Positions 19,529 through 33,373 of a stretch of 33,373 bases of DNA are shown piece after piece. The position numbers and the translations under genes are program-made. Under the pieces are notes generated by a model, which saw only the letters and a program-made list of their open reading frames with translations, did not search any database and was not told where the DNA came from. Position 1 is the stretch's first letter, and each line of letters opens with the position of its first letter. Location of the stretch: the IMG/VR virus record IMGVR_UViG_3300013126_000123, positions 1 to 33,373 of that record. The stretch is one strand, 5' to 3'. This DNA comes from a virus.

Positions 19529-20119
19529 ATGACAGTATTAGTAGCACAAAACACCAAAGACAAAATTATCTTAGGAGCAGACACGGGAACTTTTTATGGT
19601 GATTATCATAAAATTCATTTAACTAACCATAAAAACCGACTTAAAATAATGTCAGTGAATGATATTATTTACTCTGGCACTGGTTCAGTAAGTGAAATTA
19701 TTAATTTTGGTTTATTTTGTCAAACAAGAAAGCCAGAAAGAAGTGATCAATTAGGAATACAAAGATTTTTTATTGATTTTGGTAAATGGCTAAAAGAACA
19801 AAATATTGAAAAAGATGGTAAAGTCGATAATCATTATTTCTTAGTTTTTGAAAAAAAATTATTTCATTTACGATGTGGTGCAGTTTATGAAATTTTAGAA
19901 GATGATTTTGCGACTGATGGAGCTGGATTTAAAGAGGCTTATATGGCAATGTATCTAGGTAAATCAGTTAAAGAAGCTATTGATTTAACAATTGAAATGA
20001 ATATTTGGGCTAGTGGGCAACCTCAGATTGTAGAGATACAAAAAGATAAGAATAGTAATGTTCCCAAACCAAATCTTGAAGATATAAGCGGAATACAATG
20101 TAAAGGAATTAAAAAATAA
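19529..20119 (+). CDS. Phage-encoded Ntn-hydrolase, proteasome beta / HslV-like peptidase
   Basis: The 196-residue product looks like a proteasome-fold Ntn hydrolase. After removal of Met1 the first residue is Thr, as in mature HslV and beta subunits. Counting from that Thr, the Asp of ILGAD is residue 17, the exact catalytic position. Strand order fits: a first hydrophobic strand (TVLVAQ), IILGAD, a basic segment HKNRLKIM (the catalytic Lys33 is probably K34 or K38; alignment is ambiguous), then IIYSGTGSVSEI like the GxGxxxD turn, and FATDGAGFKEAYMAMYLG late, like the usual 'GSG..yA...' helix. No propeptide and no ATPase partner are visible. Substrate unknown. It could alternatively be an inactive or peptide-processing homologue. 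Confidence 0.7.
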   Translation: MTVLVAQNTKDKIILGADTGTFYGDYHKIHLTNHKNRLKIMSVNDIIYSGTGSVSEIINFGLFCQTRKPERSDQLGIQRFFIDFGKWLKEQNIEKDGKVDNHYFLVFEKKLFHLRCGAVYEILEDDFATDGAGFKEAYMAMYLGKSVKEAIDLTIEMNIWASGQPQIVEIQKDKNSNVPKPNLEDISGIQCKGIKK

Positions 20120-20125
20120 AAATAT

Positions 20126-20566
20126 ATGATAGATTTAAAATTAGCAGAATATAATTCAGAAGGAAAGTTTGTAGGGTTTATAGGGCTTGCTGAGGCTTGC
20201 TATGCAATTTATGGTGAATTTCAAGATAGTTTTCTATCTTTTAGAGCTGGATTTATTTTTGGTAAAAATTCCGTTCAAATAGTAAATTTTTTTGATAATT
20301 CAAAAAAGGATGATATTTTTCTAAAAGATGAAAAAGACCCGCTAAATCGCTTTGATGGTTTGTTTGATGGCAGAACTTATGGTAATGGGAGGTTTGTTTT
20401 AATTATAAATGACGGAGATGACGTTTATCTAAGAAAAGTTAATTGGTTTGAAGATTTCTCAAAGTTTATGCAGAGAGAATTTCAGAGTGAATTCAAACCA
20501 AAATTAATTGGCAACCTCCATAAAAACCCTGGATTATATGAAAAAGTAAAAAATAATGAATTATGA
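20126..20566 (+). CDS. Unknown protein, third gene of accessory cassette
   Basis: The 146-residue protein starts 6 bp after the Ntn hydrolase gene, and its TGA overlaps the ATG of the RlaP-like gene (ATGA), so it is co-translated with it. It is acidic with alternating strands (GLAEACYAIYGEFQD, FVLIINDGDDVYLRKVNWF) and an aromatic-rich middle. No family, catalytic triad or membrane segment is recognised. It may be a partner of one of the adjacent enzymes. Confidence 0.7.
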   Translation: MIDLKLAEYNSEGKFVGFIGLAEACYAIYGEFQDSFLSFRAGFIFGKNSVQIVNFFDNSKKDDIFLKDEKDPLNRFDGLFDGRTYGNGRFVLIINDGDDVYLRKVNWFEDFSKFMQREFQSEFKPKLIGNLHKNPGLYEKVKNNEL

Positions 20567-21513
20567 AAATAATTGTTAAAATGAATTTTGGTAGTCATCT
20601 TTATGGCACCAATTCTGAGTCATCTGATAAAGATTACAAGGGCGTATATTTGCCAAAATTAGAAGATTGTATATTGGGAACGGTTAAGAAAAGTATTGTG
20701 AATAATAGCAAATCTGACTCAACTGCAAAAAATACAAACGAAGATTTTGACTCGGAAATATATTCGCTACAATATTTTTTATTAGAACTTGGTAAAAATG
20801 GTGATACAGCATTTCTTGATATGATTCACGCTCCAGACTCAGCATTAATTGAATCAAGTGAGATATGGGAATATATAAGAAAAAATAGAGCTAAGTTTTA
20901 TATTAAAAGCTTAAAATCGTATGTTGGTTATTGTAGAGGACAAGCAGCAAAATATGGAATAAGAGGCTCTAAATTAGAAGAGGCTCAAAAAATTTTAAAA
21001 GTTCTAAATAATTATAATGACAATGTGAAACTTGCTTATTTTTGGGAACACTTGCCAGACGGTGAATATTCTAAAAGATATGATATTGACAATTGTCAAG
21101 CTAAAGATAAAAGAGCTTTTGATTTTTGCGGAAAAAAATTAATGGCTGATACCAATGTGTTATATGCAAGAGCAACAATACAAAAGTTTTATGATTCTTA
21201 TGGTGCTAGAGCAAAAATGGCACAAGCTAATGAAGGAATTGACTGGAAAGCCATCTCACACGCTTTTAGAGTTGGTTATCAATTAAAAGAGTTGTATACA
21301 ACTAATGACCTTATTTTTCCTTTAAAAGATTCTGAATTTATAAAAGAAATTAAAAAAGGTAATTATCATTATGTTAATGATAATATTGCTGAAAAGCTAG
21401 AAGATTTAGTATTTGAAATTGAAAATTTAGCAAGGAATTCTAATTATCCTGAGCAAGTCAACATTAGTGAGTGGCAAGATTTTATAATTAAATTGTATAA
21501 CAATGAACTATAA
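20563..21513 (+). CDS. Nucleotidyltransferase of the RlaP / YcgL family (PF10127-type)
   Basis: The 316-residue protein begins with the minimal nucleotidyltransferase core: FGSHLYGTNSESSDKDYKG holds the G-S (residues 10-11) and D-x-D (D22, D24) metal-binding motif. It is followed by DSEIYSLQYFLLELGKNGDTAFLDMIHAP (about 63-91), the block typical of RlaP-type 'predicted nucleotidyltransferase' proteins (S-l-x-x-f-l-x-l-x-x-x-G-x-x). Known members have been linked to RNA repair, and large phages carry homologues. Here it would add a nucleotide to an RNA or other target; the substrate cannot be read from sequence. It overlaps both neighbours (4 bp upstream, 11 bp downstream), so the operon is tightly coupled. 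Confidence 0.82.
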   Translation: MKIIVKMNFGSHLYGTNSESSDKDYKGVYLPKLEDCILGTVKKSIVNNSKSDSTAKNTNEDFDSEIYSLQYFLLELGKNGDTAFLDMIHAPDSALIESSEIWEYIRKNRAKFYIKSLKSYVGYCRGQAAKYGIRGSKLEEAQKILKVLNNYNDNVKLAYFWEHLPDGEYSKRYDIDNCQAKDKRAFDFCGKKLMADTNVLYARATIQKFYDSYGARAKMAQANEGIDWKAISHAFRVGYQLKELYTTNDLIFPLKDSEFIKEIKKGNYHYVNDNIAEKLEDLVFEIENLARNSNYPEQVNISEWQDFIIKLYNNEL

Positions 21514-22534
21514 CTGGAACTTAAAAGATACAAATTTTACCAAAGATAAAGGCAAGGTATTTTCTTGTTTTGCTGGAGGTGGTGGTAGCACAATGGGCTA
21601 TAAACTAGCTGGCTTCGATGTTATTGGTTGTAATGAAATAGATAAAAAGATGATGGAGGTTTATATTGAGAACCATAAACCAAAATATAATTTCTTAGAA
21701 CCAATTCAATACTTCAAGAATAGAAATGATTTACCTGAAGAATTATTTAATTTAGATATTTTAGATGGTAGCTTTCCTTGCTCTTCATTCTCAATGGCTG
21801 GTAGTAGAGAGAAAGAATGGGGAAAAGAAAAGAAATTTAGAGAAGGTCAACAAATGCAAGTATTAGATACTTTAGCTTTTGACTTTATCGATTTAGCTGG
21901 AAAATTAAGACCTAAAATAATTATTGCAGAAAATGTAAAAGGTATTTTAATGGGCAAAGCTAAAGATTATGTTAAAAGGATTTATCAAGAGCTAGATAAG
22001 ATTGGTTATACTTGCAATCATTATGTTTTAAATGCTTCTAAAATGGGAGTTCCTCAAAGAAGGGAAAGAGTTTTTTTTATTTGTGTTCGCAAAGATTTGA
22101 ATAAGAATATTTTTGACCTCAATTTAGATTTCAATGAAAAGCCAATTTTATTTGGTGAATTTTATCAACAAGGAGTTAATGATAGAAAAATAAGTGATGG
22201 TAAGATGAAAGAATATTGGCTTAAGAGAGAAATTGGTGATACAAGTTTTGCAGATACAATTATGAGAACAGAAGGTAAGACAAGATGTTTCAATAATAGA
22301 TATGTTTATGCTAATAAGGTATGCGATACTTACACTAGCAATGGTGATGCTTTATACTTATTTGATGAATATAGAAAACCAAATAGATTTGAAAGCTGTT
22401 GCATTGGAACTTTTCCACAAGACTACAATTTCTTAAATCAGCAATATAACTATATCATTGGAATGAGTGTTCCGCCATTAATGATAGCTAAAGTTGCAAA
22501 AAAAGTTTATGATAAATTTTTACTAAAGAAGTAA
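21503..22534 (+). CDS. DNA (cytosine-5) methyltransferase, orphan
   Basis: The 343-residue enzyme transfers a methyl group from S-adenosylmethionine to C5 of cytosine. Motif I is SCFAGGGGSTMGYKLAGF (22-38), motif II has GCNEID, motif IV GSFPCSSFS with catalytic Cys93, motif VI AENVKG (142-147), motif VIII VPQRRERVFF (183-192), and motif X is near the end (IIGMSVPPLMIAKVA). The target-recognition region lies around 225-310, so the recognised site is unknown. No restriction endonuclease is next to it. It probably protects phage DNA from host restriction or alters gene expression. Last gene of the cassette, followed by hairpins. Confidence 0.95.
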   Translation: MNYNWNLKDTNFTKDKGKVFSCFAGGGGSTMGYKLAGFDVIGCNEIDKKMMEVYIENHKPKYNFLEPIQYFKNRNDLPEELFNLDILDGSFPCSSFSMAGSREKEWGKEKKFREGQQMQVLDTLAFDFIDLAGKLRPKIIIAENVKGILMGKAKDYVKRIYQELDKIGYTCNHYVLNASKMGVPQRRERVFFICVRKDLNKNIFDLNLDFNEKPILFGEFYQQGVNDRKISDGKMKEYWLKREIGDTSFADTIMRTEGKTRCFNNRYVYANKVCDTYTSNGDALYLFDEYRKPNRFESCCIGTFPQDYNFLNQQYNYIIGMSVPPLMIAKVAKKVYDKFLLKK

Positions 22535-22583
22535 ATAGTTTTTTAAATTCAACTATTAGAAGTTATTAATAAATATTATTAAT
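22534..22583. terminator. Hairpins between convergent methyltransferase and portal genes
   Basis: AATAGTT/AACTATT (22534-22540 and 22551-22557, 10-nt loop) and ATTAATA/TATTAAT (22565-22571 and 22577-22583) are two AT-only stems in the gap between the convergent stop codons. The first stem begins with the methyltransferase stop region. They would be weak, possibly bidirectional terminators. Confidence 0.35.
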
Positions 22584-24252
22584 CTTTTAACTTTTCCCAA
22601 ATGTTGGTAGCCCAAGTCCTACCTGCATCCCCACCCCATAAATCCCAAGCTATTCTCCAAGTTGTAGGTTCACCATCTCTAAATTCGTAATGAGTTGAGC
22701 GATAGTTGCCGTGTCTTGAAAAGAAGGAATACATTCTTCTAATAGTTGTAGGTGTAAGATTTTCTCTATTCTTTAATTGATTGGCTCTTTTAACTCCAAC
22801 AGCCGTGCCACCTCTACCATATTTTTGTCTCCATTCTAAAGCTCTAGTTGCCGCTCTTGCCATTTCTTCAGTTGGCTTATAAGTTTCAACTGCTTTTAAA
22901 ACTTTATTATTAGAATTTACATCACTACTTCCCCTATTTTTGTTATAATCAATAAGAGGTTCGCCAATCATTTCTTTATCTTTAGCATCAATACCAATTG
23001 GAACTTGGTTGCCGTCCATAAAAAAGATGTCTAATCCTTTATTTGTTGGCATATTAAATAAACTTCTTAATTCATTTTTATATAAGAATTTACCTTTATC
23101 TAAATTTAAAGCATTATCAATTAATTTACTTCTTAAAGGTAAAATATCCCATAATTTATAGGTAAAATTATCAATAGATTTATAAGTAAAATTATTGTAA
23201 ATAGAATTTTTAATAAAGCTAAAGTAATTATTAAAGTGGGGAATAATCACTCTTTCATATAAATTAAAATTTGCTTGCTCTAAAATATTTTGAGAATTGG
23301 AGGTAACTGAATTAACCAAAGATAAGGGTATTTCGAATTTCTTATATATTTGTAATTCAGAATTCATTTTCTGAGCAGAAAAATCCATATCTTTAGCAAC
23401 AAATTGATTTTTCAAATCTTGAATCTTTAACTTAATTAAAGAAATAATTGTTCTGCCTGAATTTTTAGCTCCAGAAAATTGATTAGATAATTCATTTTGT
23501 AAATTCTTTCTTTGCTCATCAGTGTTAAAAGCAGCAAAATTAGAGTTTTCGTCAAGAGTCACAATTTTATCAGCAGTTAAAGCCTTTTCCATACCACTTT
23601 TATTATGTATATTAGCTTCATTATACAACAATATTTCTTTTTCAACGGAAGTTAATGATGATTTACCTAGAAAAGTAGAAAAGGGGATTATTCCATTGGG
23701 GTCAGATGCTTCTTTATATACCACTAACTCATCATTATTTAAAAAATAACCTAATCTTCCTCTTTTTAATTTATATTCATAAACATCTTCTAAACCATTG
23801 ATATTTTGAACTTTAATCTTGGTAGGGTGTAATTGTTTTGTAGCAAATTCACTTTCAAAAAAGGATATTCTACGAGGATGTATATTTTCTATTGATTGTA
23901 GTTTATCATTTTTACTTTTAATCAAAATAAAATTATTGCCACAAGAAAAAAAATGGGCTAAGCCTTCACTAACAAATTGTTGGTAGGTCTGCCAAGAATT
24001 AGGTTTAGCCAAAAATTCAAGAAAATCATTTCTTAAATTTAAATTATTATCTTTTGAAGCATAAGGTTTAATTGAAGCAACACCTTGGCTTATCATATCA
24101 ATAGCCGTGGCAACAGGGGCGCAAGTGCGATAATACTCCATATATTCATCTAAAGAAACGGCTACTGCAAATTCTTTCTCACCTGAAGGAAGAACACTTA
24201 CATAATAGCTTTTGCCCCTAGAAGAAAAGATTCTATTGAAAAAACTAAACAT
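22579..24252 (-). CDS. Portal protein (HK97 type) with fused C-terminal domain
   Basis: The 557-residue portal forms the dodecameric DNA gate. Residues 1-400 follow the HK97/Phage_portal family: VATAIDMISQGVASIKPY (about 48-65), FLAKPNSWQTYQQFVSEGLAHFFSCGN (stem region, about 84-110), VYKEASDPNG, and the wing/clip segments with DMDFSAQKMNSELQIYKKFEIPLSLVN. The C-terminal about 100 residues, after a low-complexity linker, form a separate module (LEWRQKYGRGGTAVGVKRANQL...RRMYSFFSRHG...RIAWDLWGGDAGRTWA), a domain that occurs alone or fused to other head proteins in many phages. Its job is unknown. The gene lies alone, separated from the protease/capsid genes by the plus-strand cassette. Confidence 0.9.
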   Translation of the reverse strand: MFSFFNRIFSSRGKSYYVSVLPSGEKEFAVAVSLDEYMEYYRTCAPVATAIDMISQGVASIKPYASKDNNLNLRNDFLEFLAKPNSWQTYQQFVSEGLAHFFSCGNNFILIKSKNDKLQSIENIHPRRISFFESEFATKQLHPTKIKVQNINGLEDVYEYKLKRGRLGYFLNNDELVVYKEASDPNGIIPFSTFLGKSSLTSVEKEILLYNEANIHNKSGMEKALTADKIVTLDENSNFAAFNTDEQRKNLQNELSNQFSGAKNSGRTIISLIKLKIQDLKNQFVAKDMDFSAQKMNSELQIYKKFEIPLSLVNSVTSNSQNILEQANFNLYERVIIPHFNNYFSFIKNSIYNNFTYKSIDNFTYKLWDILPLRSKLIDNALNLDKGKFLYKNELRSLFNMPTNKGLDIFFMDGNQVPIGIDAKDKEMIGEPLIDYNKNRGSSDVNSNNKVLKAVETYKPTEEMARAATRALEWRQKYGRGGTAVGVKRANQLKNRENLTPTTIRRMYSFFSRHGNYRSTHYEFRDGEPTTWRIAWDLWGGDAGRTWATNIWEKLKD

Positions 24253-25277: not shown

Positions 25278-25369
25278 GAACTTTTAAAACCTTACTCTAA
25301 CTTAACTTCGGACAATCACATACCTTTTAAAACCAATAAAATCAATACTATAAAAAAAAATAAAATACT

Positions 25370-25398
25370 ACTTGACAAAAATAAATAACTTGACAAAA
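25370..25398 (+). repeat. Direct repeat ACTTGACAAAA x2 (18-bp period)
   Basis: ACTTGACAAAA occurs at 25370-25380 and 25388-25398. Each contains TTGACA, but neither has a good -10 at 16-18 nt. Adjacent to the hairpin cluster; tandem operator sites or redundant -35 boxes are both possible. Confidence 0.5.
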
Positions 25399-25402
25399 TA
25401 TA

Positions 25403-25486
25403 ACACTTATGGGGAAGTGTATCTTAATAATAAACACTTTTATTCATTTAGATACACGGGGTCTTCAGTATAATTGAGGAGAAGAC
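25403..25486 (+). other. Stacked hairpins with two mutually exclusive stems
   Basis: Hairpin A: ACACTT/AAGTGT (25403-25408 and 25415-25420) with loop ATGGGG. Hairpin B: GTGTATCT/AGATACAC (25417-25424 and 25450-25457) with inner AAT/ATT and AATAAA/TTTATT pairs, 41 nt in all. Hairpin C: GTCTTC/GAAGAC (25461-25466 and 25481-25486) with a 14-nt loop that contains GAGGA. A and B share bases 25417-25420, so they cannot form together. GGGG occurs in both the A loop and the B-C junction. Confidence 0.6.
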
Positions 25487-25491
25487 TATTT

Positions 25492-25527
25492 ATGTCCATT
25501 ATTGAAATCAACTCATATCTCTTTTAA
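25492..25527 (+). CDS. 11-codon ORF behind a Shine-Dalgarno (possible leader peptide)
   Basis: ATG at 25492 reads MSIIEINSYLF then TAA. GAGGAG lies at 25475-25480, ten nt upstream and partly in hairpin C, so folding could hide it. No larger gene follows at once. It could be an attenuator peptide, but chance is plausible. Confidence 0.25.
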   Translation: MSIIEINSYLF

Positions 25528-25748
25528 TAAAAATATTATTTCAATAATAATAAATAGGCTTACAAAGTTTTCCTTTCAAATAATCTCTTAAGAAATCTTC
25601 CTAGAATTATAATATATGTGTTTTATCTTGTAGATGTGGTGTTATAGCCAATAGATTCAAACAGGGGGGCTAGTGTGTTTAAAATTAAGTTTAAATAGTT
25701 TTTTAAAAGAGAGAGTGAGAAAAGTGAAAAAACATCTATTTTTGAAAT

Positions 25749-25832
25749 GAGTTGAGTGGCATCTAAAATTAAACTGAGTTGTGTAAGTATAGTTAAAAAA
25801 AGCATTAAAAATTAGTGGGAGTTGTGTAAGTA
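25749..25832 (+). repeat. 14-bp direct repeat GAGTTGTGTAAGTA with a diverged third copy
   Basis: Identical copies at 25776-25789 and 25819-25832, 43 bp apart, with a partial copy (GAGTTGAGTGGCA) from 25749. The spacing and the adjacent G-rich tract suggest a protein-binding array, for example for small terminase or an initiator. Confidence 0.5.
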
Positions 25833-25843
25833 GGTTATTCCAC

Positions 25844-25866
25844 CGCCCCCCGCCCCCCCTCTTCCC
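25844..25866 (-). other. G-quadruplex-capable tract
   Basis: On the minus strand the tract reads GGG, AAGA, seven G, C, six G, C, GG. Splitting the seven-G run gives four runs of three G with short loops. In DNA this AT-rich it is a striking island. A six-G run on the plus strand lies at 25669-25674. Confidence 0.6.
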
Positions 25867-25917
25867 AATCAAATTTTATGCCCCTTCCAAAACAATAAAC
25901 CAATTAAAAACAAATAT

Positions 25918-26205
25918 ATTTTTTTTAATAACAATTATTATTTTATATTAATTTATAATAATTATATTTTTTTTTAATAATCCTACTACTTCCAATAAGT
26001 TATAAACATTTACAAAATAAAAATAGATATTGTTTAAAAATAATAAATTTAATAACAATTATTTATTTATAATATTTTAATAATAAATAATATAAATATT
26101 ATAAAAATTATTTATTAATATTATTATTATTGATTAATATTATTATTAATAATAAATAAGATTAATATTTATTGATGAAAATTAATAAGATTATTAGAAA
26201 ATATT
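25918..26205. other. Long A/T-only tract (candidate unwinding element)
   Basis: About 290 bp almost without G or C, made of ATT/TTA/AAT runs, with many short self-complementary stretches. It directly precedes 10-bp repeats. Such DNA melts readily and is typical of origins or of intrinsically bent regions. Confidence 0.45.
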
Positions 26206-26260
26206 AAAGACAGGAGTAGTTTATTAAGAAAATTAGAGAGAGTTAGATTGTAGTAAGACT

Positions 26261-26320
26261 TATTCAAATTTATTCAAATTTATTTACATTTATTTAAATT
26301 AATCAAAATCATTTAAAATT
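26261..26320 (+). repeat. Iteron-like tandem repeats of 10 bp (TATTCAAATT)
   Basis: TATTCAAATT, TATTCAAATT, TATTTACATT and TATTTAAATT follow one another from 26261 to 26300; diverged copies (AATCAAAATC, ATTTAAAATT) run on to 26320. The helical-turn period puts the copies on one DNA face, as in bent DNA or an initiator array. Confidence 0.55.
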
Positions 26321-26730
26321 ATTAATAACTATTAAAAAATAATTACATTAAATAAATAAAAATCATTAAAACTTAATAACTTCTAATAAATAAAATAACA
26401 AAATCAAATTGGAACAAAAAACAAAAAAATAAAATAAAAATCAATTAATACTTGACAGCTAAAACGGGACAAAACAAAAAAAACTCTTGACATAATTTTT
26501 TTAAATAAAACTTAATAAAAATTAATAAAAATAATATAAGTTAATAAAAATATTATAAATTAAACTTAAAATTTTTATGGAATTAATAAAAAAAATATTA
26601 AAATAATTTTAAAAAAATATTTTAATTTGAATAAAATTAAATAAAAAAAATCTTGTAAAGCCTTGATTTTATTGATTCCATCAAGTTATTGTTTCAAAAT
26701 AAAAAACTTAAAAAAAGATTAAAATAATGT

Positions 26731-26759
26731 TTGACATTATAAATAAAGTAAGTTATTAT
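26731..26759 (+). promoter_or_regulatory. Strong rightward promoter TTGACA-17-TATTAT
   Basis: TTGACA (26731-26736), exactly 17 nt, then TATTAT (26754-26759): a near-consensus sigma-70 promoter. It reads into the rightward array with a start near 26766 and a leader of about 50 nt before ATG 26819. Confidence 0.75.
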
Positions 26760-26818
26760 ATTTATATAACAAAAAGATAAATAAAAAATCTTTTAAATAA
26801 TAACTTAAAAAAAAATTT

Positions 26819-26956
26819 ATGGCTTATAAAAAAGAAAATTTGCAAGAAACTATTAATTTAATTTTTCAAGCAACTAAAGAATTTTTAATGATTGCTACAG
26901 TAATTATTTTAACTTCGTTTATTGCGCTATCATTGTTCAATGATTTAGCTAAATAA
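26819..26956 (+). CDS. Small single-span membrane protein
   Basis: A 45-residue product, the first gene after the strong rightward promoter. After a polar N-terminus (MAYKKENLQET) it has one hydrophobic helix (FLMIATVIILTSFIALSLF, about residues 23-41) and ends NDLAK. The leader is A-run then TTTATG, without Shine-Dalgarno. Such small inner-membrane proteins occur early in many phages, in superinfection exclusion or host takeover; no family is recognised here. Confidence 0.6.
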   Translation: MAYKKENLQETINLIFQATKEFLMIATVIILTSFIALSLFNDLAK

Positions 26957-26981
26957 TTTATTAACTTTAATTTAAAAACTT

Positions 26982-27221
26982 ATGTATTACAAAATAAAAT
27001 GGTATTTTATAAATAAAAAGACAGCTCACAAAGCTGTGGATTTATTAGGAGCTAAGTCAATTGATTGTTTAAAATTTTATAAAAATAATAAACTTTTAGA
27101 TGAATTAAGCTTTAGTCATTTCAGTGATTTTGAAGCTAATAAAAGAGCTAAAAAAGAAATAACTAAATTTTTTAAGCAAAATCAAAGCATAAATGATTTT
27201 GTTGAATTCTATAAACTTTAA
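26982..27221 (+). CDS. Unknown 79-residue basic protein; parent of a duplicated remnant
   Basis: A small basic protein starting MYYKIKWYFINKKTAHKAVDLLG, which could be one compact alpha/beta domain (strand-helix-strand). No family recognised. Its last 22 codons, FFKQNQSINDFVEFYKL and a few before it, recur almost unchanged at 32577-32645, where only the tail is left. The gene has the full leader motif ACTTTAATTTAAAA before its ATG, and its own stop lies inside the leader of the next gene (AAACTTTAA). Confidence 0.65.
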   Translation: MYYKIKWYFINKKTAHKAVDLLGAKSIDCLKFYKNNKLLDELSFSHFSDFEANKRAKKEITKFFKQNQSINDFVEFYKL

Positions 27222-27231
27222 TTTTAATTTT

Positions 27232-27507
27232 ATGTCAACTATTCTATTTAATGAACGCATCGACAACGCTAATAGATTCAAAACAATTTATTTAAAACAA
27301 TTTAAGAATGGCAATGCTACTCTTGAATTTGAGAACTATCGATATACAAAGGAAGGTTTTGTAGTTGGAAACTGTAAAAAAGTTAGAACTACAATTAAAA
27401 AAGTGGACGATTTTTTGGAGAATTGTGATTCTTATTGTGAAAGTGTTGGACGTTTCGACGATTTTGACGACTTGAACAAATTCTTAAAAGAATTTAAATT
27501 AAATTAA
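27232..27507 (+). CDS. Unknown acidic small protein; start revised to ATG 27232
   Basis: The frame is open from ATG 27193, but the ATG at 27232 (MSTILFNERIDNANRF) is preceded by AACTTTAATTTTAATTTT, the leader found before the neighbours, and the extra 13 residues (MILLNSINFNFNF) would encode that leader. The 91-residue product is rich in Asp at its C-terminus (GRFDDFDDLNKFLKEF). Tyr/Lys-rich middle, two Cys. No family recognised; possibly a DNA mimic-like small protein, but the acidic part is short. Confidence 0.65.
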   Translation: MSTILFNERIDNANRFKTIYLKQFKNGNATLEFENYRYTKEGFVVGNCKKVRTTIKKVDDFLENCDSYCESVGRFDDFDDLNKFLKEFKLN

Positions 27508-27542
27508 TAATCAAGATTCTATTAACTTTAATTTATAACTTT

Positions 27543-27683
27543 ATGAAAATAATTTTAATAATAACAATCTTGTTAAGTTATGCACTATATAGCGATTTGA
27601 CAAGACCACCAAATACAATTTTTGAATCAGAGGAAAGCTACAAAAATTATTTACATTATTTAGATAAAAACGGCTTAAATTAA
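27543..27683 (+). CDS. Small protein with N-terminal membrane or signal segment
   Basis: A 46-residue product beginning MKIILIITILLSYALYSD, a hydrophobic N-terminal helix that could be a signal anchor or uncleaved signal peptide, followed by a polar tail (SEESYKNYLHYLDKNGLN). Short enough to have been missed by a length cut-off. It carries the repeated leader (AACTTTAATTTATAAC before ATG). No family recognised. Confidence 0.5.
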   Translation: MKIILIITILLSYALYSDLTRPPNTIFESEESYKNYLHYLDKNGLN

Positions 27684-27709
27684 ATTAATAACTTAACAAC
27701 GGGGACATT

Positions 27710-28135
27710 ATGGAATTCAACACAATAAAAAATATAGAAAATTTAAAAAACAACTCAGAAGCTTGGAATTTGATATTGTCAAATTATGGTTTATTGGATA
27801 CTAGTACTTTACGTGATATTAAAAACTCTTTAATATCTAATTTTGGACACACAAACGGTTATTATCATTCAGGAAGCTCTTTAAAATATTTAATTAAAAT
27901 TTTTGGAAGTCCGACGATTGCAAAAAAACAAAGCAGGAAAATTTTAGGTAAAAGAATAAACGATTTGCGCGAGCTCGCCGGGGCTTTAGATATTCACTAT
28001 TTTACGATTGAATTAAATGAATTGGATGATGAACTTGAAATTGTAAGAATTTTTATAAGGAATGAATTATTTAAAAAAAGAAAAAAAGAGCAAGAATTAA
28101 TAAAAAAAGATTATATTGATTATTATGGTTCCTAA
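27710..28135 (+). CDS. Unknown 141-residue protein
   Basis: No family recognised. The N-terminal part (FNTIKNIENLKNNSEAWNLILSNYG) and middle (FGHTNGYYHSGSSLKYLIKIFGSP) look helical, followed by KKQSRKILGKRINDLRELAGALD and a Lys-rich C-terminal helix (RNELFKKRKKEQELIKKDY). It is basic overall, so nucleic acid binding is possible. The leader differs from the neighbours: AACAACGGGGACATT before ATG, without ACTTTAATT, which may mean different expression. Codons include GCGC/GCTCGCC, unlike the A/T background around. Confidence 0.6.
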   Translation: MEFNTIKNIENLKNNSEAWNLILSNYGLLDTSTLRDIKNSLISNFGHTNGYYHSGSSLKYLIKIFGSPTIAKKQSRKILGKRINDLRELAGALDIHYFTIELNELDDELEIVRIFIRNELFKKRKKEQELIKKDYIDYYGS

Positions 28136-28139
28136 TGAA

Positions 28140-28197
28140 CTTTAATAATAACTAATAATCTTTAATAATAACTAATAAACTTAATAACTAATAAAAA
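28140..28197 (+). repeat. 20-bp tandem repeat of leader-like sequence
   Basis: CTTTAATAATAACTAATAAT (28140-28159) is followed by a near-identical copy (28160-28179) and a partial third (from 28180). Each begins with the CTTTAAT element of the gene leaders. It sits directly upstream of the 52-residue ORF. Confidence 0.6.
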
Positions 28198-28201
28198 ATT
28201 T

Positions 28202-28360
28202 ATGAAATTTTACTTAAACAATCAACTTGTAACATTACAGGAATTAATAAACATTAATAATAATTATAATTTAAAAATAAATAATATTATTATTAAGAAT
28301 AATCAAATTTTAGTATTTTTTAATAAAAAAATACAATTAAAAAACTTTTTAACTTTCTAA
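28202..28360 (+). CDS. Very small Asn/Ile-rich ORF (52 residues)
   Basis: MKFYLNNQLVTLQELININN and on, ending FFNKKIQLKNFLTF. The A/T-only leader precedes the ATG and the frame is intact to TAA. The composition (Asn, Ile, Lys) is what AT-rich DNA gives by chance, but the strand, leader and spacing match the array. No family recognised; a short beta-hairpin protein is plausible. Confidence 0.4.
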   Translation: MKFYLNNQLVTLQELININNNYNLKINNIIIKNNQILVFFNKKIQLKNFLTF

Positions 28361-28505
28361 ATTATCAAAATCAATTTTAGGGCGGTAAATTTAAGTTTAT
28401 AGCGGTTTTTAACTTGCTAGCTAGTAAGTAGCTATAAATTTTATTTTAACGGCTTTAAAAACAAGGTTTTAATAATTTAAATATACTAACTTAATTAATT
28501 AATTT
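28361..28505 (+). other. Non-coding spacer with palindromes (ACTTGCTAG/CTAGTAAGT)
   Basis: The spacer holds ACTTGCTAG/CTAGTAAGT (28412-28429), a near-perfect 18-bp palindrome, overlapped by TAGCTA/TAGCTA (28418-28423 and 28429-28434). Upstream GGTTTTTAACTTGCTA (28404-28419) resembles GTTTTTAGCTTGCTA at 29993 and 30071. It looks like an operator or recombination point. Confidence 0.4.
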
Positions 28506-28874
28506 ATGAAAAATACAAAACTAGACTTTAAAGAATACTTAATAAATTTTAAAAATGATAAATTTTTAAAATTTACGACTAAAAACGGTTATTTAACCGG
28601 GCAAATCTTGCTTTTTAATAAAACTAGAGAAATTAAGGATTATCAAGATTTTTTAATTTATATCGATGATTATGAATTTAAAAAAAATTATAATAATATT
28701 AATTTACTTGAACACTACAGCGACGGCAACGGGGGCGGTTCGGTCTATGTTAATAAAACTCGTTTTAATAATTCTAATGAAATGGTTGAGCATCATAATT
28801 TAATAATTCAAGTAATTGATAAAATAAATAAAGAAATTGCCGGCAACTTTAGCAATTGCCAGATTTTAGAATAA
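28506..28874 (+). CDS. Unknown 122-residue protein
   Basis: A soluble protein with no recognised family. The N-terminal part is Lys/Phe/Asn-rich (MKNTKLDFKEYLINFKND). A glycine-rich turn (HYSDGNGGGSVYVNKT, about residues 77-92) in the middle separates two alpha/beta halves, followed by a helix (SNEMVEHHNLIIQVIDKINKEI) that contains His-His. Two His and an Asp nearby could bind metal, but no known motif is matched. The leader carries AACTTAATTAATTAATTT before ATG, a member of the repeated leader class. Confidence 0.6.
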   Translation: MKNTKLDFKEYLINFKNDKFLKFTTKNGYLTGQILLFNKTREIKDYQDFLIYIDDYEFKKNYNNINLLEHYSDGNGGGSVYVNKTRFNNSNEMVEHHNLIIQVIDKINKEIAGNFSNCQILE

Positions 28875-28917
28875 AAATAAAAATTAATAAATAATATTAA
28901 CATTTAATAAAAACATT

Positions 28918-29391
28918 ATGAACAAATATTTTATTAATATTTTGGGGCTTGATAGTCTAAAACAAAAATATAAAGAATTAGCAAAAAAATTGCATCCAGA
29001 TTTAGGCGGCGATGCTGAGGAATTTAAAGCAATGCGGGCAGAATTTGAGGAGGTGTTTTACAAATTCAACGGCGAAGATAACAAGGAAAGGCCGGGGCAA
29101 TTAACGGGCTTGTTAGATAAATTAATTTTCTTGTTTAATTTGCCGGGAGTTGGTGTTGATATAGTCGGGCGGTGGCTGTGGATTAGTTTTGAAAATAAAC
29201 CAGAAACCGCAATAATTGACAAATTAAAAGAGGCGGGCTTGAGGTGGAGTAGTAAGCAAAAAAAATGGTATAGCGGCGGGGAAAATTTCAAATATAAACC
29301 GATAAAAAGCGGCTTGAATTATAGCGAGATAGTAGCGAGGCACGGCAGGCAAGAATACAAGGGGCAAGGCTTGAAAGGCTTGGAAAATTAA
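28918..29391 (+). CDS. Small J-domain (DnaJ-like) protein with a C-terminal recognition module
   Basis: The 157-residue protein has a short J domain at the N-terminus: LKQKYKELAKKLHPDLGGD (HPD at about 29-31, with the Lys-rich helix II before it), then helices III (FKAMRAEFEEVF). J domains stimulate Hsp70/DnaK ATPase. The C-terminal half (VDIVGRWLWISFENKPE, then LKEAGLRWSSKQKKWYSGG) is the 'GLRW..kkk.WY' module found with small J domains in phages and mobile elements. It may divert host DnaK. The gene is visibly less AT-rich than its neighbours (GGC, GCG, CGG codons), a sign of separate origin. Confidence 0.8.
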   Translation: MNKYFINILGLDSLKQKYKELAKKLHPDLGGDAEEFKAMRAEFEEVFYKFNGEDNKERPGQLTGLLDKLIFLFNLPGVGVDIVGRWLWISFENKPETAIIDKLKEAGLRWSSKQKKWYSGGENFKYKPIKSGLNYSEIVARHGRQEYKGQGLKGLEN

Positions 29392-29402
29392 TAAAATAAA
29401 CT

Positions 29403-29422
29403 GGGGGGCTTTATAACCTCCC
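29403..29422 (+). terminator. GC-rich hairpin after the J-domain gene
   Basis: GGGGGG pairs with CCTCCC (one G-T wobble), loop CTTTATAA. It follows the J-domain gene stop by 12 bp. The sequence after it is GGCAACTTT, with only a short T-run, so it may be a weak terminator or an RNA end-stabiliser. Confidence 0.45.
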
Positions 29423-29459
29423 GGCAACTTTAAAAAATTAACAATTGATTTAAAAAATT

Positions 29460-29759
29460 ATGTATAGAATAAAATATAGAATAAAATTTTATGGTCAAAA
29501 AAACGGGGCAACTCAAGCTAGAGAGCTTGATAACCTAGGGCTTGAAACTTCAACTTTAACTAATAAAGAGGCTTATAACTATGGCCGGGAAGTCTTGGCA
29601 GAATTTGCCCGCGATTATGTCAATAACTACGAGGGGGCGGACGATGACTCCCGCCTTGAAAATGCTAAGTATTATTTAAAGGAATTAATGGCAAATAATA
29701 TCAATAATTATTACGAGGATGTAACAACTTATTTTTTTAAAGTCTTTAAAATTAAATAA
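29460..29759 (+). CDS. Unknown 99-residue protein
   Basis: A soluble protein with no recognised family. It begins MYRIKYRIKFYGQKNG, an N-terminal strand-rich segment, then ARELDNLGLETSTLTNKEAYNYGREVLAEFARDYVNNYEGADDDS (helical, acidic), and ends with YEDVTTYFFKVFKIK. It has the same less AT-rich codon style as the J-domain gene next to it (GGCCGGG, CCCGC), so the two may have arrived together. Leader: AATTAACAATTGATTTAAAAAATT. Confidence 0.6.
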   Translation: MYRIKYRIKFYGQKNGATQARELDNLGLETSTLTNKEAYNYGREVLAEFARDYVNNYEGADDDSRLENAKYYLKELMANNINNYYEDVTTYFFKVFKIK

Positions 29760-29766
29760 AAAATTT

Positions 29767-29988
29767 ATGAAATATTAAAAAAAATTTATATCGCAATTTA
29801 AAGAAAATAATAAAATGGTTGCTATGGTCTGTAATTATAAAACTAAAAAAGTAAAGTTTTTTTTGGGTCAAAATGAAATTACAAAAAAAAAATATTTTGA
29901 TTTAAAATTTAAAAATAATTTCAAATATTTAATGGATGATTGCGAATTTTTTGGCGGTAAATATAGATTATTTTTAGATAAAATTTAA
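29767..29988 (+). pseudogene. Short ORF with in-frame TAA at codon 4 (or gene starting at ATG 29815)
   Basis: ATG 29767 with a leader-like AAATTT is followed by AAA TAT TAA (stop at 29776), then the frame is open for 69 codons to TAA 29988: KKFISQFKENNK, then MVAMVCNYKTKKVKFFLGQNE and on to GGKYRLFLDKI. The frame could instead begin at ATG 29815 (57 residues). A second leader-like run (AAAAAAATTTAT) precedes codon 8, where ATA stands in the place of ATG. It looks like a small array gene with a damaged or unusual start. No family recognised. Confidence 0.4.
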
Positions 29989-29997
29989 ACAAGTTTT

Positions 29998-30033
29998 TAG
30001 CTTGCTACAATCAATTTTTAAAGTAGCAAGCTA
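29998..30033 (+). repeat. 11-bp perfect inverted repeat TAGCTTGCTAC / GTAGCAAGCTA
   Basis: TAGCTTGCTAC (29998-30008) pairs with GTAGCAAGCTA (30023-30033), 14-nt loop. The GTTTTTAGCTTG lead-in recurs at 30070 and, slightly changed, at 28406. No T-run follows the stem, so it is more likely an operator, packaging-related or recombination element than a terminator. Confidence 0.6.
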
Positions 30034-30132
30034 CTTAACTAAATAATAACCTTAAAATCTATTTAAAAATAGGTTTTTAGCTTGTTATTTATAAAAAATA
30101 ATGGGGCTTTTACTAACTTAATTAAAAAATAT

Positions 30133-30456
30133 ATGAATAATTACACTTACAACAATAAACAAGCCAACACAACGATTAAACTGCCTGAGCTTGGTGGGTC
30201 AAGAGTTTTAAAAATATCAACTTCAAAAGGAAATGGAGAGGTTAAAACCTGGTTGACAGTTGGCACGGAAGAGCAAATTGCCCCTAATTATGTTGCATTT
30301 GAAACCGCTATTTTTAGCGATTTTAGTAAATCGGTAGGCTCTGGATTGCCCCGAGCAACTGAAAAAAACATTAAAACTGCTCACGAGGCGGTCTTAAATA
30401 AAATCAATAATTTTATTGAAGAAATTAAAATTTTTTATACAAAAAAGGCAAGTTAA
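30133..30456 (+). CDS. Unknown 107-residue protein; start revised to ATG 30133
   Basis: The frame extends upstream to TTG 30082, but ATG 30133 (MNNYTYNNKQANTT) has the leader ACTTAATTAAAAAATAT, as for neighbouring genes, so it is preferred. The product has a beta-type N-terminal half (TIKLPELGGSRVLKISTSKGNG, VKTWLTVGTEEQ) and a helical C-terminus (ATEKNIKTAHEAVLNKINNFIEEIK). No family recognised; similar short proteins occur in phage and plasmid accessory arrays, but I cannot name one. Confidence 0.6.
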   Translation: MNNYTYNNKQANTTIKLPELGGSRVLKISTSKGNGEVKTWLTVGTEEQIAPNYVAFETAIFSDFSKSVGSGLPRATEKNIKTAHEAVLNKINNFIEEIKIFYTKKAS

Positions 30457-30471
30457 AAAGCCGGTTTATTA

Positions 30472-30491
30472 ACACCACAAAAAAACTTTTT
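30472..30491 (+). repeat. 20-bp spacer repeat, copy 1
   Basis: ACACCACAAAAAAACTTTTT occurs here and again at 30933, so the spacers before two consecutive genes share a 20-bp identical block. It resembles neither the ACTTTAATT leader nor a promoter. Confidence 0.6.
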
Positions 30492-30514
30492 TATTAATCT
30501 TAATTATTATATTT

Positions 30515-30913
30515 ATGGGAAACAGAGCAGTTTTAAAATTTATCGATGATATTGACCAACCAACCATTTATTTACATTGGAACGGCGGGCGTTCAAGCGT
30601 TCAAGCCTTTTTAAATGTAGCTAAAAAAATGAATTTGCGGGCTGATAGCTACGGAGTGGCTAGGATGTGCCAGATTATTGGGAATTTTTTAGGCGGCAAT
30701 TTGAGCCTTGGCTGTAATAAAAAAGCTTTTTCTTGCGGCGATAATGGAATTTATTTAATAAAAAATTTTGAAATTGTTGGCAGGGAAGATTTTGAAGGGG
30801 CTGAAGAATTAGACGAGGAAGCAACTAAATTAATGACCGATTATATTCTTGATTTAAATAAAAAAATTGACGAGGCAAGGGAGGAATTAAACAATTTAGA
30901 AAAATATAAATAA
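30515..30913 (+). CDS. MGNRAV / YLHWNGGR-type accessory protein
   Basis: The 132-residue protein starts MGNRAVLKFIDD and has YLHWNGGRSSVQAFL (about residues 19-33), then ADSYGVARMCQIIGNFLGG and NGIYLIKNFEIVGRE, ending in an acidic helix (LDLNKKIDEAREELNNLEKYK). Proteins with this MGNRAV...YLHWNGGR signature are common, uncharacterised residents of phage and plasmid accessory regions; I cannot name a function. The conserved His-Trp-Asn and Arg could form a small active or binding site. The codons (GGCGGGCG, CGG) are less AT-rich than usual here, so it may have a separate origin. Confidence 0.6.
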   Translation: MGNRAVLKFIDDIDQPTIYLHWNGGRSSVQAFLNVAKKMNLRADSYGVARMCQIIGNFLGGNLSLGCNKKAFSCGDNGIYLIKNFEIVGREDFEGAEELDEEATKLMTDYILDLNKKIDEAREELNNLEKYK

Positions 30914-30932
30914 TTATTAATTATTAACCAAA

Positions 30933-30952
30933 ACACCACAAAAAAACTTTTT
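30933..30952 (+). repeat. 20-bp spacer repeat, copy 2
   Basis: ACACCACAAAAAAACTTTTT, identical to the copy at 30472-30491. The two copies bracket the MGNRAV gene, in the spacers before genes 30515 and 30975. Confidence 0.6.
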
Positions 30953-30974
30953 ATAAACCTTTAATTAAAAATAT

Positions 30975-31496
30975 ATGATAAAAATTAATAAAAATGCAGT
31001 AAAAAACATTATTAAAAATCAAGTTAAAAAAAACAAGGATTTAATTTATAATGCCGGGGTCAAAGATAAAGAAAATATAAAATATTTATTAAAAAAAATT
31101 GAAGATGATTTTTTAAGCGAAAACGACATTGCTGACAAAATCGAAAATCAAATAAAAGATAATGAAATAATTTTAGAAAATATTGATTTAGACGAGATAA
31201 AAGAATTAAGAGCGGCGGCAATGCATAAAATTCTTAATGATTTAAAAGAAACCTATTTTTTTCAAAGATATTTAGTTGATTTTGCTTTAAACCATAAAAA
31301 TTTTTATATTGAATATTGTTTTAAAAATGATGATTATAAATTAATTTTTGAGACAAAAAACAAAAATATTTTTGTCAAACATTTAACCTCGCAAGATTTA
31401 CAAAATCTTGATGATGAATTAGAAGAGGAATATGGGTATTATTGCGGTCAATCTGCGGGCTGTATTCAATATTTAATAAATAAATTTTCATTATAA
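30975..31496 (+). CDS. Unknown 173-residue acidic/Lys-rich helical protein
   Basis: No family recognised. The first 90 residues are charged and helical (KKNKDLIYNAGVKDKENIKYLLKKIEDDFL...). A central ELRAAAMHKILNDLKETYFFQRY is followed by a beta segment (YIEYCFKNDDYKLIFETKNKNIFVKHL) and an acidic EELEEEYGYYCGQSAGCIQYL near the C-terminus, with two Cys close together. No membrane segment. The leader CTTTAATTAAAAATAT before ATG is in the repeated class. Confidence 0.6.
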   Translation: MIKINKNAVKNIIKNQVKKNKDLIYNAGVKDKENIKYLLKKIEDDFLSENDIADKIENQIKDNEIILENIDLDEIKELRAAAMHKILNDLKETYFFQRYLVDFALNHKNFYIEYCFKNDDYKLIFETKNKNIFVKHLTSQDLQNLDDELEEEYGYYCGQSAGCIQYLINKFSL

Positions 31497-31514
31497 ACTT
31501 TAATTTAAAAAACT

Positions 31515-31895
31515 ATGTCAAATAAAAATCAGTATTTATATTTTAATACTTATACAAAACAAGCCAGTTTTTTTGAAGCTTTAAACGATTTTGAAGCTCA
31601 ACATTATATTATAAATCATTATGATATATCCGAAGGGTCAGTATATGAAAGCGGGCCAGAATTTATAAAAATTTATCACGAAAATTGGTCGTTGGATAAT
31701 CAAATAAAACTAGACTTAAAAAATTTTGATAGTTTTAAAATTATAAATAGAAAATATATGCAATGTAATTATATTAATAAATTTTTCAAATGTAAATGGT
31801 CTGGAAAAAATGCAATTTGCTATTTAAATAATAAAAATAAGTCTAAAATAGACTTAACACCAATTTTTGAAGAAATGGAAGCCCTAGGGCTTTAA
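31515..31895 (+). CDS. Unknown 126-residue protein
   Basis: No family recognised. The N-terminus (MSNKNQYLYFNTYTKQASFF) is aromatic-rich. The middle has an Asp/Glu/Ser-containing stretch (HYDISEGSVYESGPEFIKIYHENW), and the C-terminal part is basic with four Cys dispersed (CNYINKFFKCKWSGKNAICYLNN), which may bind metal, but the spacing (Cys, nine, Cys, eight, Cys) is not a known motif. Leader ACTTTAATTTAAAAAAC before ATG. Confidence 0.6.
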   Translation: MSNKNQYLYFNTYTKQASFFEALNDFEAQHYIINHYDISEGSVYESGPEFIKIYHENWSLDNQIKLDLKNFDSFKIINRKYMQCNYINKFFKCKWSGKNAICYLNNKNKSKIDLTPIFEEMEALGL

Positions 31896-31929
31896 AATCA
31901 ATTTAATATTAACCTTAATTAAAAAATAT

Positions 31930-32577
31930 ATGATTTTAGAACAATTAAAACAATTACATAAAGATGGCAAGGCTGACTCGATAATTTTAAAAAATAACAC
32001 AAAATTAAGACTTTTTATTGCTAGTGGTGATTATGGAGGGCTATGTTATTATAAAAAAGGAAGCTCAAGGCGAGGCTATCAAATTACAAGCTATCATTTA
32101 GAACAAATTAAAGAAATAAAAGAAAAAATTATTATCAATCCAGATGATAAAAATTATAAATTAGTAGCAAAATACAGAAAGCAAGCTTTAAAAGCTGGTT
32201 TTATTAATGATTTTATTCGGGATTGTTTATCAATTCCAGATTCAAGGGAAAAATGGGAAGCTGAAGGGAAAAAAGATTTATATAAATATGGTATAACTTC
32301 TGGAAATTGGATTGAGGGGCAAGTAATAACACTAAAAAATATACTCTCAAAATTAAGGCAGGAGTATCAAGAAATGGTAATTGAAGCGATAAAAGAAAAA
32401 AAAGATTTTAGTCTATCAAGATTTGAATTTAATGGATATGATGGCAGCTTGCAATTTACAAAAAAAGAAAATGGCGATTTTATTGGCTACTTCAACAAAG
32501 AATTTAGGGGTTGCGGTAATGGATATTATTATCTTTTAATTAATGAAGATAATTTTATCGGTTACGATGTAGATTAA
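31930..32577 (+). CDS. Unknown 215-residue protein with GCGNGYYYLL-type C-terminus
   Basis: The largest gene of the array in this window. Its C-terminal segment, FIGYFNKEFRGCGNGYYYLLINED (about residues 182-206), resembles the 'GCGNGHYYL' signature of uncharacterised plasmid and phage proteins. N-terminal half: EQLKQLHKDGKADSIILKNNTKLRLFIAS and a basic strand (YKKGSSRRGYQITSY); the middle is helical. It directly abuts the remnant of gene 26982 (32577-32645), so its 3' end is a recombination boundary. Function unknown. Confidence 0.6.
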   Translation: MILEQLKQLHKDGKADSIILKNNTKLRLFIASGDYGGLCYYKKGSSRRGYQITSYHLEQIKEIKEKIIINPDDKNYKLVAKYRKQALKAGFINDFIRDCLSIPDSREKWEAEGKKDLYKYGITSGNWIEGQVITLKNILSKLRQEYQEMVIEAIKEKKDFSLSRFEFNGYDGSLQFTKKENGDFIGYFNKEFRGCGNGYYYLLINEDNFIGYDVD

Positions 32578-32645
32578 ATAAAATAGCTAAATTTTTTAAG
32601 CAAAATCAAAACATAAATGATTTTGTAGAATTTTATAAACTTTAA
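32577..32645 (+). pseudogene. Truncated duplicate of the 3' end of gene 26982
   Basis: Bases 32577-32645 read in frame K-I-A-K then FFKQNQNINDFVEFYKL and TAA, almost the same as the end of gene 26982 (FFKQNQSINDFVEFYKL); DNA is nearly identical, including the following AAACTTTAATT leader. There is no start codon: the stop of gene 31930 is immediately before it. The two copies are about 5.4 kb apart and head-to-tail. It marks where the 31930 gene replaced the rest of a duplicated cassette. Confidence 0.85.
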
Positions 32646-32657
32646 TTAAAAAAATAT

Positions 32658-32972
32658 ATGAAAATACAAGATTTTGACTTAATCAAAAAAAAATTTAATA
32701 AATTTTTAAAAAAACAAAATAAAAAAATTAATGAAAATGATATAAACCAACTAATTGAAGAATTAGATAATTTTATATCGCCTCTTGATGATTTAGATTT
32801 TATCTTGAGTGTAAATTGCTCGGTTAGTGGTGAATTGGTATTTTATTTAATTAGTGTTTATGATTTAAAAGAATATGTAAAACAAAATGAATTAAATAAA
32901 ACTCTTAAATTCACAATTAAAAACCTTATTAAATTTTGTAAAATTAATAAGATTGATTATTTAAAAAATTAA
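32658..32972 (+). CDS. Unknown 104-residue Lys/Asn/Asp-rich protein
   Basis: No family recognised. A helical Lys-rich N-terminus (MKIQDFDLIKKKFNKFLKKQNKK) and an acidic segment (NFISPLDDLDFILSVNCSVSGELVFYLISVYDL), which may be a strand pair. It follows the pseudogene tail with leader CTTTAATTAAAAAAATAT before ATG, so it has exchanged its upstream neighbour. One Cys; no membrane segment. Confidence 0.55.
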   Translation: MKIQDFDLIKKKFNKFLKKQNKKINENDINQLIEELDNFISPLDDLDFILSVNCSVSGELVFYLISVYDLKEYVKQNELNKTLKFTIKNLIKFCKINKIDYLKN

Positions 32973-32989
32973 CTTTAATTAAAAAAACT

Positions 32990-33316
32990 ATGAATAATAT
33001 TTTAAAAAGAATAAAAGAAAAAAACGAGTTAATTTTAGAAATTGAAATTAACAAAAACGGGGCAGTTTTAATTTATGCAAGTAATTTATACAATGATAAA
33101 TTAAAAAGGGGCGTGCGGTTGGTAATGGTTGGCGGGGCTGGTAAAGTTAATAAAATTGATTTAGCTTTTATTAAGCTTTTTAAAATGCTAGATATTGAAG
33201 CCAAGGATTTTATTTATAATAAAAATATGTTATATTATTATTTTTTAAAACTAGGCTTTAATTTAAAAGCAATGGCAACTTTAAAAAATGGTTCGGAAGT
33301 AATTATTTTAAATTAA
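32990..33316 (+). CDS. Unknown 108-residue protein
   Basis: No family recognised. It starts MNNILKRIKEKNELILEIEINKNG and has a Val/Gly-rich segment (RGVRLVMVGGAGKVNKIDLAFIKLF). The middle VMVGGAGKV is rich in Gly but is not a P-loop (no GK[ST]). C-terminal strand/helix (FLKLGFNLKAMATLKNGSEVIIL). Leader CTTTAATTAAAAAAAC before ATG. A further gene is expected after base 33373. Confidence 0.6.
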   Translation: MNNILKRIKEKNELILEIEINKNGAVLIYASNLYNDKLKRGVRLVMVGGAGKVNKIDLAFIKLFKMLDIEAKDFIYNKNMLYYYFLKLGFNLKAMATLKNGSEVIILN

Positions 33317-33373
33317 TACTTGATTTAATTAAATAAGCTACTAAATTTAATATTAACCTCAATTTTAACTTTA

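Follow-up and report, generated by a model that had tools for sequence, protein, structure and literature searches.

How are the start codons of a series of small phage genes recognized when no Shine-Dalgarno (SD) sequence stands before them? This question is raised by IMG/VR record IMGVR_UViG_3300013126_000123, which was analyzed here over its complete length of 33,373 bases (the window). Genes for a Mu-like baseplate, a contractile-tail sheath, a portal, and a terminase identify it as a phage. Its leftward genes are structural; a very AT-rich hub comes next, and then an arm of 17 small genes on the + strand. An earlier note on this DNA had claimed that eleven starts of the arm share a leader without an SD sequence. 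We found eleven of the 17 arm starts to be marked in this way, and we consider it likely that the leader is an mRNA element of translation initiation that replaces the SD, resembles the epsilon enhancer of phage T7, and has ribosomal protein S1 as its probable reader.

Leaders at the gene starts of the arm

The motif was counted as CTT(T)AATT located 14-22 nucleotides (nt) 5' of an ATG, with CTT(T)AATT/CCTTAATT as its one-base variants. The exact form ACTTTAATT occurs nine times in the window, always on the + strand; six of these copies belong to the arm, where the distance to a start is 17-19 nt in every case. With the one-base variants, the starts at 26982, 27232, 27543, 28506, 30133, 30515, 30975, 31515, 31930, 32658, and 32990 are marked. 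The motif was thus present at 11 of the 17 arm starts and at 1 of the 92 other + strand ATGs of the arm (Fisher 4e-10). The number agrees with the eleven starts of the earlier note, whose wording that almost every gene of the arm carries the leader is too broad for a count of 11/17. Equal frequency at other ATGs or in the hub, which the note had named as the counter-case, was not found: besides the single marked ATG among the 92, there is no exact copy in the hub. The copies and the regions around them are as follows.

25278-26800: non-coding, very AT-rich hub that separates the structural genes from the arm (GC 12.5% at 26-27 kb)
26819..33316, + strand: arm of 17 small genes served by leaders, mostly without known families
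26801..26818, + strand: weak leader AACTTAAAAAAAAATTT of the first arm gene, 26819 (leave-one-out score 0.8, under threshold)
26964..26972, + strand: core ACTTTAATT of gene 26982
27215..27223, + strand: core ACTTTAATT of gene 27232; the core includes the stop codon of gene 26982
27525..27533, + strand: core ACTTTAATT of gene 27543
28488..28496, + strand: variant core AACTTAATT of gene 28506 (leave-one-out score 0.6, under threshold)
28895..28917, + strand: diverged leader TATTAACATTTAATAAAAACATT of the DnaJ-like gene 28918 (leave-one-out score 5.9 against a threshold of 4.3, passes)
30115..30123, + strand: variant core AACTTAATT of gene 30133
30497..30505, + strand: variant core ATCTTAATT of gene 30515
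30958..30966, + strand: variant core CCTTTAATT of gene 30975
31497..31505, + strand: core ACTTTAATT of gene 31515
31912..31920, + strand: variant core ACCTTAATT of gene 31930
32639..32647, + strand: core ACTTTAATT of gene 32658, directly 3' of a remnant of gene 26982
32972..32980, + strand: core ACTTTAATT of gene 32990
33367..33373, + strand: partial copy AACTTTA at the contig end

The distance from core to ATG was 8-10 nt in all eleven cases and exactly nine in eight of them, and the motif always had the orientation of its gene. Shifted circularly, the set of starts gave 0.27 marked starts on average and never more than 3. By leave-one-out matrix score, 11 of the 17 arm starts were above threshold. 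Only the linkage to starts exceeds chance; the raw number of motifs in the window (58, with 69 expected) does not. Two of the starts, 27232 (instead of 27193) and 30133 (instead of a TTG at 30082), agree with the motif in a way that is possibly circular; without them, the linkage still holds for 9 of 15 starts. The suggestion that the motif be used to call starts is reasonable, and it favours 27232 over 27193, the start of the longer open reading frame (ORF).

Two other statements of the note fared less well. Greater conservation of the motif than of the coding sequences follows trivially from the fact that the arm genes are mutually unrelated. The start at 19139, proposed as a further member, fits poorly: its nonamer lies 18 nt before the ATG, not 8-10. 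This copy is unchanged in the sister phage G001, which means little because G001 is too similar overall. Within the arm, gene 27710 has a G-rich leader, GGGGACATT, in place of the motif. The copy that the note had placed at 33366 is AACTTTA at 33367-33373 and breaks off at the contig end. A search of IMG/VR for a contig that overlaps position 33373 or extends past it found none.

When the arm starts were aligned on the ATG, they read AA[C/T][C/T]TTAATT, an A-run at -9 to -4, two A/T bases, and T at -1. The T at -1 was found at 16/17 arm starts and at 23/92 other ATGs, and A at -3 in only 35% of the arm starts. The 20 nt 5' of the ATG contained on average 0.35 G at arm starts, compared with 3.01 at other ATGs, and the fold energy of the region from -30 to +30 was -1.3 kcal/mol compared with -6.2 (p=3e-8). 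Taking an anti-SD pairing better than -6 kcal/mol as the criterion for an SD, none of the 17 arm starts passed, and the core contains no G. Clear SD sequences precede genes 16823, 6035, and 3081 (-8.0, -11.1, and -9.3), as had been noted; 3081 and 6035 lie within overlapping upstream genes. Starts without a strong SD also occur outside the arm, at 17 of the 20 starts of the leftward module.

Side observations concern the surroundings of some leaders. The leaders of two neighbouring genes (30471-30506 and 30932-30967) are extended alike by AACACCACAAAAAAACTTTTT 5' of the core, and a similar stretch, CACCACAAAAAACCC, occurs in L085 near 7145. A stretch at 29746-29778 resembles the leader of 28202 (84% over 32 nt) and is followed by the three-codon ORF ATGAAATATTAA; a decayed gene probably began here.

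Recurrence in other phages

An independent test was done with a weight matrix trained solely on the eleven sites of the window, as the earlier note had proposed, and applied to automatically called starts of G015 (42.7 kb). This phage is a distant relative, with protein identities of ~38% for the portal, 74% for the methyltransferase, and 57-58% for arm gene 26982. Of the 13 arm starts of G015, 7 passed the matrix, compared with 1 of the 53 remaining genes and 0.5% of the other ATGs. When each upstream sequence of G015 was shuffled, 0.63 starts passed on average, and none of 2000 trials reached 7. SD pairing was found at 1/13 arm starts of G015 and at 8/17 genes of its segment 1-7774, and because of the latter the SD is probably usable by the host ribosome.

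The window matrix also picked out the arms of G019 and G006, and it found zero genes above threshold in HTVC010P, L081, L083, and G003. The relatives G031, G033, and G034 stop short of their arms. Related leaders with the consensus TATTAAC-TTAAWT-A-run-xT-ATG are present at the arms of G006, G019, L142, L291, L272, and others, and some of the phages that bear them have unrelated virions. In L142, which has a connector of the podovirus type, the SD-less leaders take a form of their own, TTAACAATTAAATTAAAAATATATG, and one arm gene is in common with G015; in the Pelagibacter phage HTVC010P, a distant relation of the L142 connector, the leader is not used.

A scan of IMG/VR with ATTAACTTAAATAAA..ATG gave, among the matches listed, further contigs with several linked copies each, such as L291 with eight (TATTAACTTAAATAAAAAAAATATATG is one of them). 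Because these contigs are fragments chosen for the motif, they set a lower bound on how broad the family is; outside the window, all starts were called by a simple ORF caller. In ten sequences picked for the motif, TAAC-N(0-3)-TTAAW stands before ORF starts 58 times, with T at -1 in 54 of the 58, and each sequence has 3-11 linked motifs compared with 0-0.35 in composition-preserving shuffles. Across 112 scan loci from the matches listed, the motif points toward a start 174 times and in the opposite control direction 11 times, a contrast that is partly built in because the loci were selected with the motif-plus-ATG pattern.

Otherwise different phages have arm genes in common pairwise, and two arms hold RecT or replication genes; a RecT-like gene lies in the arm of G019 and a 59% relative of it in G006. 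The arms are therefore most likely early regions. The portal alignment against 84,980 species genomes found no relative. The exact motif pattern gave at least 117 scattered single matches in many AT-rich phyla, and among the matches listed only 24 of the 117 precede a plausible ORF start. In 385 genomes of one class, sampled around an alphaproteobacterial genome, and in 16 other genomes, TTAACTTAAWT..ATG was no more frequent than its reversed control.

A probable signal for the ribosome and its rivals

The position of the leader relative to transcription was judged from promoter predictions. A single site of the sigma70 type lies ahead of the arm.

26731..26759, + strand: sigma70-type promoter TTGACA-17-TATTAT, 11/12, with a predicted transcription start ~53 nt before ATG 26819

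Relative to the first arm gene, sites of the same quality lie at -74 in G015, -81 in G006, -99 in G019, and -88 in L291. Taken together, 5 of the 7 arms examined have a near-perfect sigma70 site (11-12/12, spacer 17) 74-99 nt before the first arm gene, and no site of such quality precedes the arms of L142 and L272. In the five arms, transcription is predicted to start ~40-60 nt 5' of the first ATG, so that at least the leader of the first gene would be inside the mRNA. Leaders also often overlap the stop codon of the preceding gene. Fixed orientation and spacing, the rarity of a palindrome, the overlap with stop codons, and the upstream promoter fit a signal that is read on mRNA. A translation signal, one of the functions that the earlier note had offered, has good support from the locked spacing, the T at -1, the lack of G, structure, and SD, and the location inside the predicted sigma70 transcript.

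According to the mechanism that we propose, the promoter at 26731 would give a polycistronic mRNA of the arm, presumably as one transcription unit and early in infection. In most cistrons, an unstructured, G-free leader would have (U)UAAC and then (U)UUAAUU ~10-19 nt before the AUG, with an A-run and U at -1 after them. The U/A-rich block would take the place of the SD and would probably be gripped by S1 on the 30S subunit, and the A-run with U(-1) may help to fix the start codon, to judge from published work on other organisms. It is known that A-rich sequence 5' of the AUG promotes initiation in Escherichia coli and that S1 may contact A/U-rich RNA 10-20 nt upstream (PMC7043885). A pairing of epsilon with 16S rRNA was proposed but is unsupported by rRNA mutants, and S1 binding has been proposed instead (PMC8748333). 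A role of S1 in the arm is suggested because the core lies in this 10-20 nt interval and because of the literature on epsilon. Since the leader would act by itself and differs little from gene to gene, a gene that arrives with or beside one could be translated at once. This portability would suit the observed turnover of small arm genes, be of benefit for gene exchange, and keep the leaders alike within one genome.

Two points weigh against a translation element of this kind. The A/U-rich enhancers of E. coli act mostly jointly with an SD (PMC2176067), and many genes of the leftward module are SD-less yet lack the motif. The latter indicates that the motif is not simply what the host requires for starting translation, and an arm-specific factor (time, level, or regulation) must be invoked to explain the difference between the arm and the leftward genes.

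Such a restriction to the arm would be accounted for if the leader were an RNA operator, through which an RNA-binding phage protein like RegA of T4 switches the translation of many early mRNAs off (or on) together. RegA sites share the A/U-rich composition, the lack of structure, and the occurrence on many early mRNAs (PMC3014915), which makes this a serious rival, but we regard it as unlikely. Nothing indicates repression, and the Pfam scan gave no RegA-like family among the arm proteins that it covered, a weak argument given that the contig is incomplete. The operator on DNA that the earlier note had suggested did not hold up: the palindrome TTTAATTAAA precedes only 3 starts, a minority of the copies, and the orientation is always that of the gene, so this candidate was rejected.

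Recombination has left traces at the leaders. A second copy of gene 26982 survives as a remnant, which is a sign of loss or replacement of arm genes.

32576..32640, + strand: 3' remnant (65 nt, last ~19 codons) of a second copy of gene 26982, reading AKFFKQNQNINDFVEFYKL and ending in the leader

Furthermore, the relative of gene 26982 in G015 (41225-41503) is 89% identical over 278 bp to that in L142 (7961-8238), with a match that spans from ~31 nt before the ATG to 4 nt past the stop codon. No other similarity was detected in the L142 locus, and the virion modules differ. To judge from these alignments, single-gene exchange with borders in or near the leaders does occur. It is rather improbable that the leader is mainly a DNA recombination joint, kept alike by recombination and not by a function in expression, although the remnant that ends in the motif, the single gene common to G015 and L142, and the pairwise sharing of arm genes, with the RecT-like gene of G019 and its relative in G006, all speak for it. 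Such a joint leaves the nearly fixed spacing to the ATG, the T at -1, and the exclusion of G unexplained, as well as the convergence of different phages on leaders that are similar but differ in detail, at unrelated genes. The recombination joint of the earlier note can therefore be retained as a by-product of the leader and not as its main function.

The leader could also be a promoter element that gives each gene a leaderless or near-leaderless transcript, since its TTTAAT is similar to TATAAT and lies at a fixed distance from the ATG. We consider this very improbable. The second base of the hexamer is T and not the conserved A, no -35 element was found at 16-18 nt spacing (best 1-4/6 at motif-bearing starts), and the promoter match at individual arm starts equals the arm background (mean 8.44 compared with 8.15 of 12). 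A sigma70 promoter at each gene was rejected on these grounds, and the one strong promoter ahead of the whole arm in five phages, with at least the first leader within the transcript, and the several copies that overlap the previous stop codon speak against it too. That the motif is mere A/T-rich, G-poor intergenic DNA of an AT-rich phage is hardly credible: the arm is indeed very A/T-rich and raw counts are at chance level, but shuffled upstream sequences of equal composition almost never score and yield few linked motifs, the leader is absent from other genes of the same genomes and from the AT-rich HTVC010P and L081, the hub has no exact copy even at 12.5% GC, and chance or composition was rejected by start linkage and shuffles.

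Beyond the translation element itself, a wider proposal can be made tentatively. AT-rich phages with virions of the contractile-tail and podovirus types might form a community that uses a common portable, SD-independent ribosome-binding module on the early arms. Small genes would move from phage to phage with leader-type borders, any gene set behind the leader would be translated, and the consensus would be tuned in each lineage, possibly to the host S1 or to a phage factor.

Known systems and neighbouring features

The nearest described system is that of the start-associated sequences (SAS) of cluster K mycobacteriophages, which have been proposed to act in translation initiation (Pope et al. 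2011, PMC3203893). Both are short conserved sequences 5' of the starts of many unrelated genes, in one orientation, limited to the non-structural right half and specific to a phage group, and they sometimes contain the previous stop codon. The restriction to the non-structural part holds for the arm of the window and for G015, with its 7/13 arm starts and 1/53 other genes. The SAS is a 13 bp sequence, GGGATAGGAGCCC, with the SD core AGGAG; its distance to the start is 3-7 bp, and a 17-bp inverted repeat (ESAS) is present at about half of the sites. The arm leader, in contrast, has no SD and no GC-rich sequence, its core lies 8-10 nt from the ATG, and its relatives occur in phages with unrelated virions. 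The 13-bp consensus with its SD core was not found in the arm, as no motif-bearing start shows SD pairing.

The epsilon enhancer of T7 gene 10 has the sequence UUAACUUUA (PMC9590205). Its nonamer TTAACTTTA is exact in 3 of the 11 leaders (26982, 27543, and 32990), with one- or two-base variants elsewhere, and like the leader, epsilon is A/U-rich, unstructured, and located 5' of a phage start codon. In T7, epsilon lies upstream of a real SD at a single strongly expressed gene, whereas the arm leader occupies the SD position, with no SD between motif and ATG, at most genes of the arm. The leader is thus SAS-like in arrangement and epsilon-like in sequence, and neither definition fits it fully.

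Two further systems were compared. A-rich or Kozak-like initiation in Flavobacterium and E. coli (PMC6847099, PMC7043885) is similarly SD-less, A-enriched, and low in structure; unlike it, the arm has a specific nonamer and T at -1, and A at -3, the key Kozak-like base, reaches the 35% given above. No TAnnTTTG, the -7 element of Bacteroidota-type promoters, was found in the 500 nt before the arm, where the near-perfect sigma70 site lies. In these features the arm differs from Kozak-like initiation of the Bacteroidota type. The operators of T4 RegA (PMC3014915) are likewise A+U-rich, poly(A)-containing, and unstructured at many early starts, but they overlap or adjoin the AUG and show no clear sequence conservation, unlike the arm leader.

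Whether a specific A/U-rich RNA element is enough for ribosomes to choose starts can be tested cleanly on these natural sequences, with dozens of near-identical SD-less leaders and, in G015, SD-bearing genes in the next segment. Discussions of epsilon usually present it as a helper of a strong SD; here a similar sequence seems to substitute for the SD across a whole early region. The leader gives a practical rule for calling the starts of tiny genes in AT-rich phages, and it may explain how such genes are swapped and immediately expressed.

The remaining observations concern the rest of the window, in which no Rfam family and no tRNA was found. The hub is possibly an origin or a regulatory region, and similar hubs lie 5' of the arms of G015 and L142. 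For the arm protein encoded at 31930-32577, no close relative was found in IMG/VR. An accessory cassette at 19529-21513 encodes a peptidase of the HslV family and a nucleotidyltransferase of the RlaP type (67% identical in L016), and it is followed at 21503-22534 by a cytosine methyltransferase with an identity of 74% in G015 and 60% in a Flavobacterium phage. In the portal ORF (22579-24252), the last ~100 residues match many other phages at 50-67%; L002 and others have the portal-like part and this C-terminal domain on separate ORFs. A perfect TTGACA-16-TATAAT at 16376, on the minus strand, is directed at the head-tail connector genes.

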